From Alphaproteobacteria bacterium (GTDB taxonomy: Bacteria; Pseudomonadota; Alphaproteobacteria; Elsterales; Elsteraceae), in the NCBI GenBank assembly GCA_004292755.1, contig RDXE01000024.1:1-64000 (forward strand): DNA of 64,000 nt, in the 5' to 3' direction. Positions 1 to 12,086 of this stretch are shown here, in pieces. Each line of letters opens with the position of its first letter. The stretch's first letter is position 1. The notes under the pieces are model-generated. The model searched no databases. It was not told the origin of the DNA and saw only the letters and a list, made by a program, of their open reading frames with translations. The translations under genes and the position numbers were made by a program.

Positions 1-135
1 CAGCGAATAACCGCCCAGGATCTGGGCGGTCTGCATCACCTGCTCCTGGTAGACCATGATCCCGTAGGTCTCGGACAGCACCGGCTCCACGAGCGGATGC
101 GGATACTCCACGGGCTCGCGGCCGTGCTTGCGGGC
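1..135 (-). pseudogene. dnaE: Internal fragment of DNA polymerase III alpha subunit (DnaE)
   Basis: The minus strand encodes a stretch with the DnaE catalytic-core motifs [13 protein letters not shown] and [14 protein letters not shown], ending in GGYSL at the window edge. In intact DnaE this part is preceded by the YRPGPM...IP region. Here the similarity stops at the codons for LARKHG (about position 136), and the minus frame upstream has only an unrelated run from a possible ATG at 192, with a stop just before it. The N-terminal half of dnaE is therefore missing from this place, so the piece looks like the broken end of a rearranged or partial copy. Whether the C-terminal half is intact lies outside the window. 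An assembly join is the main alternative. Confidence 0.75.
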
Positions 136-201
136 CAGGGCAGTGCTGACGTCCGCCAACTCGCAGTCGCGCTGTTCCGCCGCCTGCGCCATCGCTCACC
201 G

Positions 202-1854
202 ATGATGTTTGTGCCGCCACGGGTGAATCTGGCGGGGTTGGACCTGTCTGGCGATCGCGCCGACTGGCTGTCGCACCGCCAGTTGGACGGGGCCGATCTT
301 TCCGGTGCCACTCTGTTGGGGGCGGACCTGCGGCAGGTGCAGTTTCGCACCTGTCTGCTGGAGGGCACCATTCTCGGCTCCGTCGCGTTCGACCGCTGCA
401 CCTTCACGGCGTGTTCCGGCGCACCGCGCAGCCTTGCCTCCGCCCGCGCGTTCGCCTGCGAGGATCCCGACGACTTCCTGCCCAACGGCGGCTTGGTGCT
501 GGACTTTCCGACAGGCGGGAAAAATTTCCGGTCGGCTTCGCCGCTGTCCTGTTTGCTTCGACCACATCTGGACGTGGTCACCAGCGCCAGCTTCTCTCAC
601 GATGGAGCGCGCATCGTTACTAGCTCCGTCGACAAAACTGCACGCGTCTGGGATGCCAGATCAGGACAAAGACTCCTCACTCTCTCTGGCCATCAGCGCA
701 CGGTCACCAGCGCCAGCTTCTCACACGATGGAGCGCGCATCGTCACCAGCTCCGACGACAACACTGCACGCGTCTGGGATGCCAGATCAGGACAAACGCT
801 CCTCACTCTCGAAGGCCATCAGAACTGGGTCACCAGCGCCAGCTTCTCGCACGATGGATCGCTCATCGTCACCAGCTCCTACGACAACACTGCACGCGTC
901 TGGGATGCCAGATCAGGACAAACAATCCTCACTCTCGAAGGCCATCAGGACCCGGTCTACAGCGCCAGCTTCTCGCACGATGGATCGCTCATCGTCACCA
1001 GCTCCCGCGACAACACTGCACGCGTCTGGGATGCCAGATCAGGACAAACAATCCTCACTCTCGAAGGCCATCAGGAGGCGGTCACCAGCGCCAGCTTCTC
1101 GCACGATGGAGCGCGCATCGTCACCAGCTCATACGACAACACTGCACGCGTGTGGGATGCCAGATCAGGACAAACAATCCTCACTCTCGAAGGCCATCAG
1201 AACTGGGTCACCAGAGCCAGCTTCTCACACGATGGATCGCGCATCGTTACCAGCTCATTCGACAACACTGCACGCGTGTGGGATGCCAGATCAGGACAAA
1301 CAATCCTCACTCTCAAAGGCCATCAGGACCCGGTTTCCAGCGCCAGCTTCTCGCACGATGGATTACGCATCGTCTCCAGCTCCTACGACAAAACTGCACG
1401 CGTCTGGGATGCTAGATCAGGACAAACAATCCTCACTCTCGAAGGCCATCAGAACTGGGTCACCAGCGCCAGCTTCTCGCACGATGGATCACGCATCGTC
1501 ACCAGCTCCTACGACAAAACTGCACGCGTCTGGGATGCCAACACTGGCGAAGAACTTGAGTGCCAAAGCGCCGAAGACTTCGACCGTCTGGCGGGTAACC
1601 CCACCGCCCGATCCCCAGACGGGACGCGCATTCTGAAGATCGACCGCGGGACCACCCAGATCTGCGATGCTGCGACGGGCAAGCCCATCCTAATCCGCGT
1701 CCACATCAACGATGCGTGGTTTGTCATTGATGAGAACGATGTCGTCCTGCGCATGTCGGAGAATGGCTGGCGTTATATCTATGGGAAGGAGGTCGGCCCC
1801 CATGGTCAAATCCGCATCGCCGCACCGCGGATGCCAGAGGTGGTGAGTGGCTGA
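202..1854 (+). CDS. WD40-repeat protein with pentapeptide-like N-terminus
   Basis: The protein has about 550 residues. The first ~60 residues resemble pentapeptide repeats (LDGADLSGATLLGADL). Eight WD40 blades of 42 residues follow (577-1539), each with a GHQ...SFSHDG...TARVWDA core, and then a ~100-residue tail without repeats. Beta-propellers of this kind bind partners through their top face; no catalytic domain is visible. The frame stays open back to 97, but positions 1-135 are antisense to a dnaE fragment, so the native start is probably lost or is the ATG at 202 or 205, which has no convincing ribosome site. The stop lies inside a 48-bp repeat. It may be the 3' part of a larger sensor (such WD40 arrays often end STAND NTPases), but that is inference. 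Confidence 0.8.
   Translation: MMFVPPRVNLAGLDLSGDRADWLSHRQLDGADLSGATLLGADLRQVQFRTCLLEGTILGSVAFDRCTFTACSGAPRSLASARAFACEDPDDFLPNGGLVLDFPTGGKNFRSASPLSCLLRPHLDVVTSASFSHDGARIVTSSVDKTARVWDARSGQRLLTLSGHQRTVTSASFSHDGARIVTSSDDNTARVWDARSGQTLLTLEGHQNWVTSASFSHDGSLIVTSSYDNTARVWDARSGQTILTLEGHQDPVYSASFSHDGSLIVTSSRDNTARVWDARSGQTILTLEGHQEAVTSASFSHDGARIVTSSYDNTARVWDARSGQTILTLEGHQNWVTRASFSHDGSRIVTSSFDNTARVWDARSGQTILTLKGHQDPVSSASFSHDGLRIVSSSYDKTARVWDARSGQTILTLEGHQNWVTSASFSHDGSRIVTSSYDKTARVWDANTGEELECQSAEDFDRLAGNPTARSPDGTRILKIDRGTTQICDAATGKPILIRVHINDAWFVIDENDVVLRMSENGWRYIYGKEVGPHGQIRIAAPRMPEVVSG
577..1539 (+). repeat. Eight tandem 126-bp WD40-coding repeats
   Basis: Units start at 577, 703, 829, 955, 1081, 1207, 1333 and 1459; the last keeps the pattern for 27 codons only. 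Most units differ at a handful of codons. The units at 829 and 955 differ only at codons 2, 18, 41 and 42, every change is an amino-acid change, and no silent change is seen. Such homogeneity indicates recent duplication or gene conversion. Confidence 0.95.
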
Positions 1855-1880
1855 CGCGGGCTTGCTGGGTGGGCCGGGTC
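1833..1880 (+). repeat. 48-bp direct repeat, copy 1
   Basis: This copy is identical over 48 bp to 2790-2837 and begins gccagaggtggtgagtgg. It covers the last codons and stop of the WD40 gene. The flanking bases differ on both sides, so the repeat ends are sharp. Together the copies bracket the toxin-antitoxin cassette. Confidence 0.97.
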
Positions 1881-1893
1881 GCGGGAGCTGGTA

Positions 1894-2415
1894 TCAGGTA
1901 CCCGCGTCGTCGCTCAACAGAGGTCCCAGCCGGTCGTGCAAGATTTTTGTTTGGGCGTGCGCTTTCTGGCACTCAGCGAGTAAAGCCGCCCAATCAGTTG
2001 GCGGATTGTTTTTGGTCAACATCGACCGAAATACCGTGTAAGCATCTGTATTACTGCCATACGTCCGCACTGTGTTTTCGTCGTTGACCCACCCAATTGC
2101 GATGATTTTGTCTGCTGAGTGAAATCGAAAAAACAGGCGATACCGCTGCCCTCCAAACTTGACGCGCCGCCACTCGGTATTGCTTCCTCCAAGCGTGGTG
2201 CCCTGACGAAATCGGGAGTGACCTGGGTCGTTTGGCACCTCATCCCTGATGATCTGGACAATCGAGACAAGCCGCAGCCACGGGTTCTTCTGAGTGTATG
2301 TTTCTGGCTGTTTTGCCTTATCTCTCTCCACTCTGGCGATCAGACTGTCCATCTGAGCGATGAAACACGGGTGGAAGTAGATGGTCCATCCGTTGATAAC
2401 CAGCGTCTTAGGCAT
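1894..2415 (-). CDS. yhaV: YhaV-family toxin of a type II toxin-antitoxin pair
   Basis: The 173-residue protein matches YhaV (a RelE-like ribosome-associated mRNA interferase of about 154 residues) through NGWTIYFHPCF near the start, RVKFGGQRYRLFFR in the middle, and GWVNDENTVRTYG plus DAYTVF towards the end. The start at 2415 (MPKTLVINGW) is chosen because it overlaps the antitoxin stop by 8 bp, as usual for coupled pairs, and because similarity begins there; the longer frame to 2523 is the antitoxin in another frame. Expression would kill or arrest the cell unless PrlF is present. The gene ends 14 bp before repeat copy 1. Confidence 0.9.
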   Translation of the reverse strand: MPKTLVINGWTIYFHPCFIAQMDSLIARVERDKAKQPETYTQKNPWLRLVSIVQIIRDEVPNDPGHSRFRQGTTLGGSNTEWRRVKFGGQRYRLFFRFHSADKIIAIGWVNDENTVRTYGSNTDAYTVFRSMLTKNNPPTDWAALLAECQKAHAQTKILHDRLGPLLSDDAGT

Positions 2416-2734
2416 TGTCGTCGTCGTCGGGCAGTGGCGCATCCAGGTTGAGCCGTGCGGTACCGACCATTGCCTCCATGCGGGCGAACAGCGACGCCGC
2501 TGGCTGGAGATTCCCGGCGGCAATATCGCGCTCTAGCAACGCAAGAAAGGCCATCAGTGCCGGATCCTCATGCTCTGCAGATCCGCGGATTGCACCGACC
2601 TCAACCTTGCCGCCAGGGGTGATTGTCCATGCGATCTTGTCGCGTTGCCCCAGCCCCAGTGCTGCGCGGACCGCGCTTGGAACGGTGGTCTGGTACCGAT
2701 CCGTAACGCTGCTCTCAAATTTCAGATCGGCCAT
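2408..2734 (-). CDS. prlF: PrlF-family antitoxin (AbrB/SpoVT-type swapped-hairpin DNA-binding protein)
   Basis: The protein has 108 residues, close to the 111 of E. coli PrlF. The N-terminal SSVTDRYQTTVPSAVRAALGL is the AbrB/MazE-like swapped-hairpin segment. The C-terminal part, with an acidic end (APLPDDDDNA), would bind the toxin. It is the first gene of the pair and overlaps yhaV by 8 bp. PrlF proteins normally repress their own operon; an inverted repeat sits in the predicted promoter just upstream (2766-2779). The operon lies between two 48-bp repeats. Confidence 0.9.
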   Translation of the reverse strand: MADLKFESSVTDRYQTTVPSAVRAALGLGQRDKIAWTITPGGKVEVGAIRGSAEHEDPALMAFLALLERDIAAGNLQPAASLFARMEAMVGTARLNLDAPLPDDDDNA

Positions 2735-2789: not shown

Positions 2790-2837
2790 GCCAGAGGTGG
2801 TGAGTGGCTGACGCGGGCTTGCTGGGTGGGCCGGGTC
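2790..2837 (+). repeat. 48-bp direct repeat, copy 2
   Basis: Exact second copy of 1833-1880, 957 bp downstream. It ends 17 bp before the ATG of the next gene at 2855, so it forms that gene's 5' region. Confidence 0.97.
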
Positions 2838-9349: not shown

Positions 9350-10024
9350 TCAGCAGCGACCATTGGGTCGGGCCACGGTCGTACCGTCCGGAGCGAAGCA
9401 CTCCAACGCAGTACCTGGGAAGGCGTGGTTCAGCGCGTTCAGGACGTCCGGGTGATTGGCGAACTCCTGGTACCAAGCGAGCCAGAAGCCGATTTGGGTG
9501 GCGATGTTACAGATATCACTGACGTCAAGCTTTCCATCGTTGAACGACCTTTGATGTCGCTGAGCTGTTACCTGGGCTTTGTTTAAATCGTCCAGGCGGC
9601 TATCACCAATCGAACGTGGCATGCCGTTCAAATTGAACACAGTGAGGAGGGCGCTGACCTCTTTTCGTTCATCATCCCCCAAGCTTGGATGCGGGACCAG
9701 GGCGCCATGGTCGACGGAAAGAATGCGGCCCGTGTTGTCCCGATCAGGTCGAAACAGGTGATCGATCTCTTGAGTGCCCTTGCTTGTGTTGCATGATTTG
9801 CAGCAAAGAAGCAGATTGTTCCAATCGGTCTCCAGATGTCTATGCAGACTTTTCGGTTTGACGTGATCGATTTCCGGTGCGTGTGTCAATCGCGTATTGC
9901 AGTAGCAGCAGTAGCGACCGAGTCTGTTTATCAAATCTTCTCTTGCGTCACCGTAGCCGCCAAAAACCTTGAGTTGATTTTTTGTGTCATCTGTTGGCCT
10001 CGGGCCGCGGTTGACCGGACGCAT
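9350..10024 (-). CDS. ptuB: HNH endonuclease, PtuB of a Septu antiphage system
   Basis: The 224-residue protein has a complete HNH core: a CxxC pair at 39-42, EIDHVKPKS with the catalytic Asp53-His54, and NNLLLCCKSCN (69-79), where Asn and the second zinc CxxC lie. The C-terminal half is helical and lacks known motifs. It starts 3 bp after the ATPase stop. ATPase plus HNH side by side is the PtuA-PtuB arrangement of Septu, which cuts nucleic acid upon phage infection. No reverse transcriptase or retron RNA is seen, which argues against a retron-linked PtuAB. Confidence 0.85.
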   Translation of the reverse strand: MRPVNRGPRPTDDTKNQLKVFGGYGDAREDLINRLGRYCCYCNTRLTHAPEIDHVKPKSLHRHLETDWNNLLLCCKSCNTSKGTQEIDHLFRPDRDNTGRILSVDHGALVPHPSLGDDERKEVSALLTVFNLNGMPRSIGDSRLDDLNKAQVTAQRHQRSFNDGKLDVSDICNIATQIGFWLAWYQEFANHPDVLNALNHAFPGTALECFAPDGTTVARPNGRC

Positions 10025-10027
10025 GGG

Positions 10028-11431
10028 CTATAATCCCGCCGCCTTGCGCTCGGTTTCCAGGAGCGCTGTGCCGACCGGGTCATCCGAGAATGGCTCCATC
10101 AATTCATCCAACCGATGGCGCGCGGCAGCTTTCTCTGCATCGGTGGCAGGTGGGCGGCGATTGACCAAATCGTAGAATTCCCGCGCCGCAGCCATCATCT
10201 TCTGCCGCCGTACACTTTGCTGTGGCTTCTCAATTCCTTGAACATACTCAAGAATATCTTCCGGCGAGGTTCCTGGAAGATCCTCGGGAATGTCGGAGGA
10301 CAGGGAGATCAGCTCACTACGGTCACAAGACTGAATGACCAAAGGTGCATGGGTTGTGAAGATAAACTGAAGGTTTGGAAACGCGGTCCGCAATCCATTC
10401 ACAATTTCCCGCTGCCAGCGTGGATGAAGATGCAGATCCAGTTCGTCAATCAGCACAAAGCCGGGAGTTTTCTTTGGTGCTTCGGCGCCGAGGTCAGGGT
10501 TTAGGATCGCGCATCGCATCGCGATCTCACCGAAGATACTCAACATGCGCTGGTATCCCGATGAAAGGGTCGATAGTGGTACCCAAGAATGCCTACCACT
10601 GACATTCAACTCAGCCATCAAAGTTGTTGTGTCTGGATCATACGCGATTTCTAAAAGCCCAGGAAGGTTTTCAAGAATTGTTGATCTTACAATTTCGAAT
10701 AAAGGTTCTTTCCGTCCTAGTACCTTCTTTAACGCACGAAAGCAGAACCATTCATCAAGAATGGCCCAGTCACCATTTCCATTTAAACCAGAAAAAAACA
10801 CATCGTTTGAAATGTCTTTTGCTCCGTTCTGTGCAATTGCCAAAAAATCAAAAGTTCTTGATTGTAGTGGAGTTTTTTGTACAGGAATATAGAGAAAGAG
10901 TGCGCCCGGCTCAAATCGGCGTCTGTGTCTCATCGTAAAGGCGCTCAAAAATTCCTTACCTACTTCCTCCCTAATTGGCCGATATGCCATGATGTTGGCA
11001 TTCAGTCTACTCAATATTGAATCGACGTCAACAGTTATTGGTGCCCGAATCTTCTCCAAATCAGCCGCCCTGGAACCGACTGACCGTAGGTAATCCCATT
11101 TATGGAAAAGCTCATTGAGAATTTCCCTTACACCTTTCTCAATTTTATTGTCGATCACCAAATCGAACACAACACTCCATTGATTTGGATTTGGCTCGAT
11201 GATTTCGATGCTCCCGAACACTCCATCTTTGTATCTTCTGCGATCTTTTAATGGAATTTCAGTTTCGGCCGTCTTAAAGAGAGACCGGATCACACAATCC
11301 GCAATCGCATCCAGCACCGCTGTCTTACCCGAGCCGTTGGTGCCGATCAAACAATTGATCCCTGGCTTGAACTCTAACTCCAAGCTCTCAAAGCAGCGGT
11401 AGTTTTGCAGGCTTAGCTTTTTCACATACAT
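10028..11431 (-). CDS. ptuA: AAA/SMC-like ATPase, PtuA of a Septu antiphage system
   Basis: The 467-residue protein is an ABC/RecF-like ATPase: Walker A GTNGSGKT at 30-37, signature LSSGYQRM near 289, Walker B VLIDELD near 326-332 followed by the D-loop-like LHLHP, and switch FTTHAP near 358. There is no long coiled coil and no TOPRIM domain, which separates it from OLD nucleases. It precedes the HNH gene with 3 bp between them. The start at 11431 (MYVKKLSLQNYRCF) follows the gpx stop by 4 bp and fits the family N-terminus. The middle of the gene (about 10600-11300) is clearly AT-richer than its neighbours, a sign of transfer. Confidence 0.85.
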   Translation of the reverse strand: MYVKKLSLQNYRCFESLELEFKPGINCLIGTNGSGKTAVLDAIADCVIRSLFKTAETEIPLKDRRRYKDGVFGSIEIIEPNPNQWSVVFDLVIDNKIEKGVREILNELFHKWDYLRSVGSRAADLEKIRAPITVDVDSILSRLNANIMAYRPIREEVGKEFLSAFTMRHRRRFEPGALFLYIPVQKTPLQSRTFDFLAIAQNGAKDISNDVFFSGLNGNGDWAILDEWFCFRALKKVLGRKEPLFEIVRSTILENLPGLLEIAYDPDTTTLMAELNVSGRHSWVPLSTLSSGYQRMLSIFGEIAMRCAILNPDLGAEAPKKTPGFVLIDELDLHLHPRWQREIVNGLRTAFPNLQFIFTTHAPLVIQSCDRSELISLSSDIPEDLPGTSPEDILEYVQGIEKPQQSVRRQKMMAAAREFYDLVNRRPPATDAEKAAARHRLDELMEPFSDDPVGTALLETERKAAGL

Positions 11432-11435
11432 CGGA

Positions 11436-12086
11436 TTATCCCAACACACGCTCAATTGCGGCTAGAACACGGGCGTCGTCTGGGGCGACTTGGGTTGGGA
11501 ACCAAGCGGCCAGCCGACCGGTGCGGTCGATCAGGTATTTGTGGAAGTTCCAGCGCGGGGCGGCTGCGGGGCCGAGTTCGCGTTCGGCCCAGCGGTAGAA
11601 TGGGTGGGCGTTGGCGCCGCGGACGGAGACCTTGCCGGTCATCGGGAAGTCGATGCCGAAGGTCGTTTCGCAAAACGCCGCGATGTCGGCATTGCTGCCG
11701 GGTTCTTGCGCGCCGAAGTCGTTGGAGGGCACACCCAGCACGGTGAGGCCGCGGGGCTCCAGCCGCTCCCACAGCGCTTGCAGGGCGCGGTATTGGCTGG
11801 TGTAGCCGCAGAAGGATGCGGTGTTGACCACCAACAGCGCCCGACCCTGGAATTGGGCCAGCGGCAGAGGGCCGCCCTCCAGCGCATCAAAGGCGAAGCC
11901 GAAGGCGGACGTGGCAGCGTCGGCGGGGTCAGACATCAGCACACCTGCAACACCCAGCGTGGCAACACCCAGCGTGGCAACACCCAGCGCGCCAAGGCCC
12001 AGCATGGCGCACCGCCGTGTCGGCTGACTGCCCTCGGCACACGTCGGGACGGAGGGGGGAGGAGAACCAGGGAAGAGGGGCGTCAT
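11436..12086 (-). CDS. Glutathione peroxidase with a Tat-like export signal
   Basis: Reduces peroxides with a thiol donor. The protein has 216 residues: an N-terminal leader with TRRCAML (Arg24-Arg25) and a long Ala/Gly/Leu segment ending ADAAT, then the GPx domain with NTASFCGYTSQY (peroxidatic Cys93), GVPSNDFGAQEPG and a WNFHKYL motif. The arrangement suggests export by the twin-arginine route, uncommon for GPx. The leader contains three copies of a 15-bp repeat. The start at 12086 has GGAG 8 nt upstream. It lies on the same strand as metY upstream and ptuA downstream, and ends 4 bp before ptuA. Confidence 0.85.
   Translation of the reverse strand: MTPLFPGSPPPSVPTCAEGSQPTRRCAMLGLGALGVATLGVATLGVAGVLMSDPADAATSAFGFAFDALEGGPLPLAQFQGRALLVVNTASFCGYTSQYRALQALWERLEPRGLTVLGVPSNDFGAQEPGSNADIAAFCETTFGIDFPMTGKVSVRGANAHPFYRWAERELGPAAAPRWNFHKYLIDRTGRLAAWFPTQVAPDDARVLAAIERVLG
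11948..11992 (-). repeat. Three tandem 15-bp repeats in the gpx leader
   Basis: Unit caacacccagcgtgg (plus strand) occurs at 11948 and 11963, with a third unit at 11978 that differs in its last bases. The units encode repeated LGVAT in the hydrophobic core of the signal peptide, so copy-number slippage would keep the frame and change core length. Confidence 0.9.

Follow-up and report, generated by a model that had tools for sequence, protein, structure and literature searches.

The WD40 array at the tip of the window, as we call the 64,000-nucleotide stretch of alphaproteobacterial DNA analysed here, is probably the propeller by which a STAND/NLR-type receptor, equipped with a TIR effector and a NACHT switch, senses its ligand, and it is probably diversifying at its top face. 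Codon by codon, this bacterial STAND-WD40 array varies where the HET-D/HET-E proteins of fungi diversify. Window position 1 is also the end of a contig (C1, 1-64000) and, because the window begins there, the original prediction of a repeat-shuffling recognition protein had half a gene in view. The features of this region are as follows.

1-117, minus strand: dnaE-like fragment (finger domain; Pfam PF17657, E 2.3e-18)
112-184, plus strand: overlap with the end of contig C64 (12608-12680), 73 bp at 96%, in frame, joining the receptor halves
112-1854, plus strand: C-terminal part of the predicted TIR-NACHT-pentapeptide-WD40 receptor ORF (the frame is open over 1-1854, with its stop at 1852-1854)
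223-366, plus strand: pentapeptide-repeat segment between the NACHT half and the propeller (NCBIfam penta_Alr5209, E 1.7e-4, residues 13-60 of 187-1854)
562-1569, plus strand: eight WD40 blades of 42 codons in the WD register (Tandem Repeats Finder, Pfam and AF2 model; units placed at 577-1539 in the original prediction)
1570-1854, plus strand: C-terminal cap, including a degenerate WD-like segment and a conserved end (read from translations; low model confidence)

The N-terminal 785 aa of the receptor are encoded on C64:10325-12679, in an ORF that is open at the contig end. The 73-bp overlap contains three mismatches, and both reading frames run on into each other, giving a total length of ~1,341 aa (by arithmetic, both halves joined). 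In a congeneric metagenome-assembled genome, a single frame runs from the TIR-NACHT region (61% identity) through the pentapeptide segment into WD40 blades 1 and 2, with the contig ending within the WD40 array. A distant orthologue (G332) is complete at 1,594 aa, and comprises TIR, NACHT, pentapeptide, ~14 blades and a similar C-terminal end (DAWFVIDENDVVLRMSENGWRYIY in the window versus WVVFDADGEILRHGPNIWRYAY in the orthologue). The C-terminal repeat sensor and the NACHT domain share one chain in both relatives. Because of the C64 half, the in-frame overlap, the one-frame congener and the complete orthologue, we read the protein from its sequence as a predicted TIR-NACHT-pentapeptide-WD40 receptor of STAND/NLR type. 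Taken alone, the window ORF has no effector domain and abuts the dnaE fragment, as might a pseudogene whose WD40 half had lost its effector half; with the N-terminal half recovered on C64, the overlap in frame, the congener contiguous and no stops or frameshifts, such a decaying remnant is very improbable and was rejected.

The dnaE fragment shows 67% amino acid identity to the intact DnaE of the genome (C63) and is similar to DnaE of other bacteria; a DNA-level search of the genome found no other copy of it. It is probably a foreign, chimeric contig tip, and its boundary with the receptor falls within a short shared stretch at ~112-135. Insertion of the receptor gene into a broken dnaE was rejected, given the intact DnaE proteins elsewhere in the genome and the probably foreign fragment.

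The C64 ORF matched NACHT (PF05729, E 1e-9), the sole NACHT above cut-off in the window genome, and TIR_2 (E 4.7e-5; 24.3 bits, below the curated Pfam cut-off of 28), and the congener weakly matched the TIR-like FxsC (NCBIfam). No HET domain was matched at the receptor N-terminus, which is TIR-like instead. The NACHT domain carries Walker A (GSFGSGKT) and Walker B (FDGLDEI) motifs that are kept in the three orthologues, with GxFGxGKT and FDGLDE invariant across all three. The S, C, Q and E of a WYxSxxCQxE motif, which by our placement falls where the catalytic Glu of TIR domains usually lies, were likewise invariant across the three orthologues. These residues, together with GxFGxGKT, fit a predicted live enzyme. 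The pentapeptide segment, with its recurring AxLxx pattern, is conserved in the congener and in the G332 orthologue. The structure model of the TIR-NACHT half was of modest confidence (pLDDT 66) and weakly matched NLRP2, NLRC4, NOD2 and plant RPP1 (query-normalised TM ≤0.32); among PDB sequences, the TIR-NACHT profile had no match. No PADLOC model matched the NACHT half, and neither PADLOC nor NCBIfam gave a match to a receptor model.

The receptor gene is rare, with a match in 3 of the 385 sampled genomes of the class, the window genome included. A profile scan with the NACHT half had the congener as its sole match, and a scan of genome contigs with the WD40 half matched no relative. A family-mate genome (G003:C643; L036:2-4780, minus strand) encodes a 1,593-aa protein, open at the contig end, with ~16 similar WD40 blades that follow what reads as a DUF4062-like N-terminus, assigned by eye, and an AAA/STAND-like NTPase. 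DUF4062 has recently been reported as a TIR-like NADase (PMC13174449).

The array itself has a period of 126 bp and 7.7 copies, with 91% matches and no indels (Tandem Repeats Finder, 576-1540), and Pfam WD40 matched eight stretches of the receptor ORF. Mean DNA identity among the eight 126-bp units was 86%, and the longest exact repeat inside the array was 69 bp. The description of all eight units as almost identical was borne out for the array as a real entity and for its six inner blades (87-94% DNA identity), but not for its ends: blade 1 shared 82-86% with the inner blades and blade 8 just 73-81% with the others, the last unit departing from the consensus beyond codon 27. At least six of the eight contiguous repeats thus have high pairwise identity (inner six, 87-94% DNA), as in highly repetitive WD40 proteins. 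The count of eight blades is provisional, because arrays of this kind are prone to misassembly from short reads (PMC12222747). The window genome also encodes a second WD40 protein (C2:290394-291233; L013), with diverged blades and a cytochrome-c-like CxACH motif, that is unrelated to the array.

An AF2 single-sequence model of the propeller had eight four-stranded blades, with residues 13-345 mostly at pLDDT >90. Among PDB entries it was best matched by ODA16 and by Tako8, a design with eight blades (TM to the target, 0.96). In the model strands, codons 41, 42 and 2 of the unit fall at the d-a loop and where strand a begins, while the b-c turn holds codons 18 and 20; all five are modelled on one face of the propeller. 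The original prediction had assigned its variable codons (2-3, 11-12, 18 and 41-42) to a binding face, which the model supports for 41, 42, 2 and 18, whereas codons 11-12 follow the a-b turn and would lie on the opposite face. Also missing from that list were codon 20, which varies between K and N, a single change at codon 15, and the changes that the end units carry at codons 28-37. The contrast drawn between two units was accurate: those at 829 and 955 differ solely at codons 2, 18, 41 and 42, with every change a replacement and none silent.

The suggested likeness to fungal HET-E/HET-D repeats extended to individual residues. In the WD40 unit of Podospora HET-D/HET-E, strong positive selection acts on codons 7, 9, 25 and 27, which occupy the d-a loop and b-c turn of the top face (Paoletti 2007, PMC1805685). 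With the two repeats aligned on a V and a D that both conserve, at a spacing of 18 residues in each, these four corresponded to unit codons 42, 2, 18 and 20 (HET positions 12, 14, 30 and 32). The entropy of these four codons ranked 1, 6, 2 and 8 out of 42, and their summed entropy was matched by 0.05% of random four-position sets (P 0.0005). A later numbering, published with the repeat sequence, lists high dN/dS at HET positions 10, 11, 12, 14, 30, 32 and 39 (PMC12222747), and five of these seven were variable in the window array. The true register came first among the 42 cyclic shifts for the four-site and seven-site patterns alike. The clustering of variable positions in the window array thus exceeds chance, and the eight blades carry eight different four-residue combinations at the HET-E sites.

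This pattern recurred elsewhere. Among the 42 shifts, the HET register also took first place in the arrays of Caballeronia (13 blades), Paraburkholderia sprentiae (8) and G332 (13) (entropy P 0.001-0.003) and, because it ranked first in each, the position pattern is present in 4/4 testable arrays, the window included; two Nostoc arrays were left out owing to irregular spacing. The Caballeronia array belongs to a TIR-nSTAND1-WD40 protein of strain NK8 (WP_213234667.1), whose 13 blades used here share 81% identity. Its gene (L053:1305-5705) is carried on plasmid pNK84, with a site-specific integrase gene close by.

Replacement changes were concentrated at the same codons. By minimum-change counts over the eight units, codons 42, 2, 18 and 20 accumulated 13 replacement and no silent changes, compared with 30 and 18 at all other codons (Fisher P 0.006). 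The original prediction proposed such a codon-level comparison and would have been undermined by silent changes as frequent as replacements; at the four face codons there were none, and silent differences among units lie at other codons (1, 7, 11, 14, 17, 24, 27 and 30). The absence of silent changes at four codons is uninformative alone, because together they contain ~2.4 synonymous sites. Omega was 2.2 at the four codons versus 0.57 elsewhere across all blades (P 0.024), and 4.2 versus 0.47 across the six inner blades (P 0.002). These P values are approximate, because the six to eight blades compared are not independent of each other and the change counts are minima. For both arrays from Burkholderiales, the HET sites gave an omega of just 1.1-1.6, which was non-significant, and the G332 blades were too diverged for an omega test. 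The site-specific replacement excess is thus supported in one array, the most homogeneous of those tested: positive selection is supported solely in the window array, whilst the other tested arrays show the position pattern.

Part of this variation could reflect surface loops that are under relaxed constraint. Under that explanation, the propeller was recently amplified, its surface loop codons drift while purifying selection preserves structural positions, and the receptor architecture stands with no arms race. Bacterial propellers are continually amplified from single blades (PMC9218822), in keeping with such drift, as is an omega near 1 at the top-face sites of the Caballeronia and Paraburkholderia arrays. 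In the window, however, replacements exceed the silent rate at the four codons, the c-d and a-b surface turns of the inner blades vary less than the HET-E sites, and the four sites coincide with those diversifying in fungi. We therefore give drift alone a modest chance of being the right account, and regard a sensor diversifying at its top face as the probable one.

Uniformity of the blade scaffold was a further property of the array. Blade identity was 86% within the genome versus a mean of 75% to the blades of the congener, and the flanking receptor gene is ~69-70% identical between the two species. The end blade retains DANTGE, which resembles the DANTGQ of the congener and fits a position on the border of an array undergoing homogenisation. 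Homogenisation was thus observed within one array. Among the inner blades, 10 of the 21 informative site pairs failed the four-gamete test; pairs in all four combinations are expected if blades exchange parts, and recurrent mutation could give the same result. Mosaic blades in one genome are suggestive of blade shuffling. A whole-genome contig search found no second similar array with which exchange could occur.

Two of the variable codons (2 and 18) change at their first two bases and keep the third constant. This NNC pattern might be produced by the reverse-transcriptase-driven mutation of a diversity-generating retroelement (DGR), of which the array would be the target, and NACHT-linked sensors are diversified by DGRs elsewhere (PMC10907252). 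The window genome contains one RVT_1 gene, its single reverse transcriptase gene (C36:38147-38764; L051). This gene sits on a different contig from the array, a DNA search found no template-repeat copy of a blade elsewhere in the genome, and eight tandem copies with whole-unit homogenisation are unlike DGR anatomy. A DGR origin of the variable codons is hardly credible on these grounds and was rejected.

In comparison with known systems, the closest known counterparts of the window receptor are the cyanobacterial WRAP/STAND proteins. WRAP (Npun_R6612) and related STAND proteins of cyanobacteria have a STAND NTPase, a C-terminal array of near-identical WD40 repeats and a TIR partner, and proteins of this type have been proposed to turn over rapidly and to serve prokaryotic innate immunity (Dunin-Horkawicz 2014, via PMC9218822). 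The WRAP TIR domain is placed on a second, co-transcribed STAND protein, the 14 blades have just 10 point mutations, and 2ymu is the structure of a related highly repetitive propeller. The window receptor differs in having a predicted TIR, NACHT and WD40 on one chain, together with a pentapeptide segment, and variation focused on four face codons. A survey of highly repetitive WD40 proteins reported that their variation falls at interaction hot spots identified by prediction, and bacterial members have the same strong internal identity and hot-spot diversity as seen here; in the sections consulted, the survey describes neither a codon-level selection test nor a TIR-NACHT-pentapeptide architecture (Hu 2017, PMC5587647). 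Bacterial STAND proteins with WD40 domains of this highly repetitive sort were already known, and it is the codon-level signal of the window array that is unusually clear.

The Caballeronia protein is likewise a single-chain TIR-STAND-WD40 protein with ~81% identical blades and variation at the same register, but has nSTAND1 instead of NACHT and an omega at the sites that is not significantly >1. Bacterial NACHT/Avs anti-phage proteins and APAF-1 have the same tripartite effector-STAND-sensor plan, the window receptor differing from the former in matching no PADLOC model. The sensors of known Avs/bNACHT proteins are mostly other than repetitive WD40 arrays. HET-D/HET-E (HNWD) proteins of Podospora anserina share a NACHT centre, near-alike 42-aa WD40 repeats and diversification at positions 12, 14, 30 and 32; they differ in being fungal, in having an N-terminal HET domain rather than TIR and ~10-12 repeats in two propellers, and in concerted exchange across ten paralogues. 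Such exchange between several paralogous arrays does not apply to the window genome, with its one repetitive array and one NACHT above cut-off. The window receptor is thus HET-E-like at its sensor, yet lies outside HNWD in having no HET domain and no paralogous arrays.

Downstream of the receptor gene, the window contains the following features.

1833-1880, plus strand: 48-bp perfect direct repeat, left copy, spanning the final codons of the receptor gene and its stop
1894-2415, minus strand: YhaV toxin (Pfam PF11663, E 2.8e-49)
2408-2734, minus strand: PrlF antitoxin (Pfam PF15937, E 1.5e-23)
2790-2837, plus strand: 48-bp perfect direct repeat, right copy
9350-10024, minus strand: Septu PtuB, HNH (PADLOC, E 2.8e-50)
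10028-11455, minus strand: Septu PtuA (PADLOC, E 1e-79)

The prlF-yhaV toxin-antitoxin module is flanked by both 48-bp repeats (1833-2837) directly downstream of the receptor gene, with no integrase between the two copies. Because the end of the receptor coding sequence, stop codon included, lies within the repeat, insertion of the module left the receptor gene intact. The Septu anti-phage pair (9350-11455) lies 7.5 kb downstream. Both systems are consistent with a defence neighbourhood, and the role of the receptor is most likely defence.

Its four diversified positions and NACHT-WD40 layout, as in HET-E (PMC1805685), might instead point to allorecognition, in which the receptor would detect not phage but a polymorphic self protein carried by kin or by other strains. 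That would have to occur with no HET domain and no paralogous arrays for exchange, and the adjacent Septu points to an anti-phage context. Nor is cell fusion known to occur in bacteria of this sort, which further counts against allorecognition. We consider it improbable here, and a sensor of phage or other intracellular threats is the likelier bacterial role than self/non-self recognition.

For such a threat sensor, the following mechanism can be proposed. STAND proteins pass from a closed to an oligomeric state once a ligand binds their C-terminal repeats (PMC7159879). The cue would be intracellular, most probably a protein of a phage or other invader, and would bind the propeller at its top face, which the d-a loops and b-c turns of the blades make up; this binding would free the NACHT domain for ATP binding and oligomerisation. 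NAD+ hydrolysis is common among TIR domains. The assembled TIR domains may then degrade NAD+, resulting in growth stop or cell death. Unequal crossing-over or conversion would keep the blade scaffold uniform, while selection would alter three or four top-face residues per blade. Because the scaffold stays uniform and only top-face residues change, specificity could shift fast with the fold unbroken.

These data tie the repeat pattern to a whole receptor architecture that can be tested. Draft assemblies can split receptor genes of this kind, and defence catalogues may miss such receptors because of this. It is conceivable, albeit doubtful, that bacterial TIR-STAND-WD40 proteins and fungal HET-type NLRs independently reached the same means of renewing specificity, through blade shuffling combined with diversifying selection on the same top-face residues, three or four in number. 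If so, these arrays would be a fast-evolving bacterial counterpart of allorecognition or antigen receptors, with strain-specific ligands readable from blade combinations. If population data confirm the pattern, blade combinations would provide a readable record of the ligand specificity of a bacterial immune receptor.
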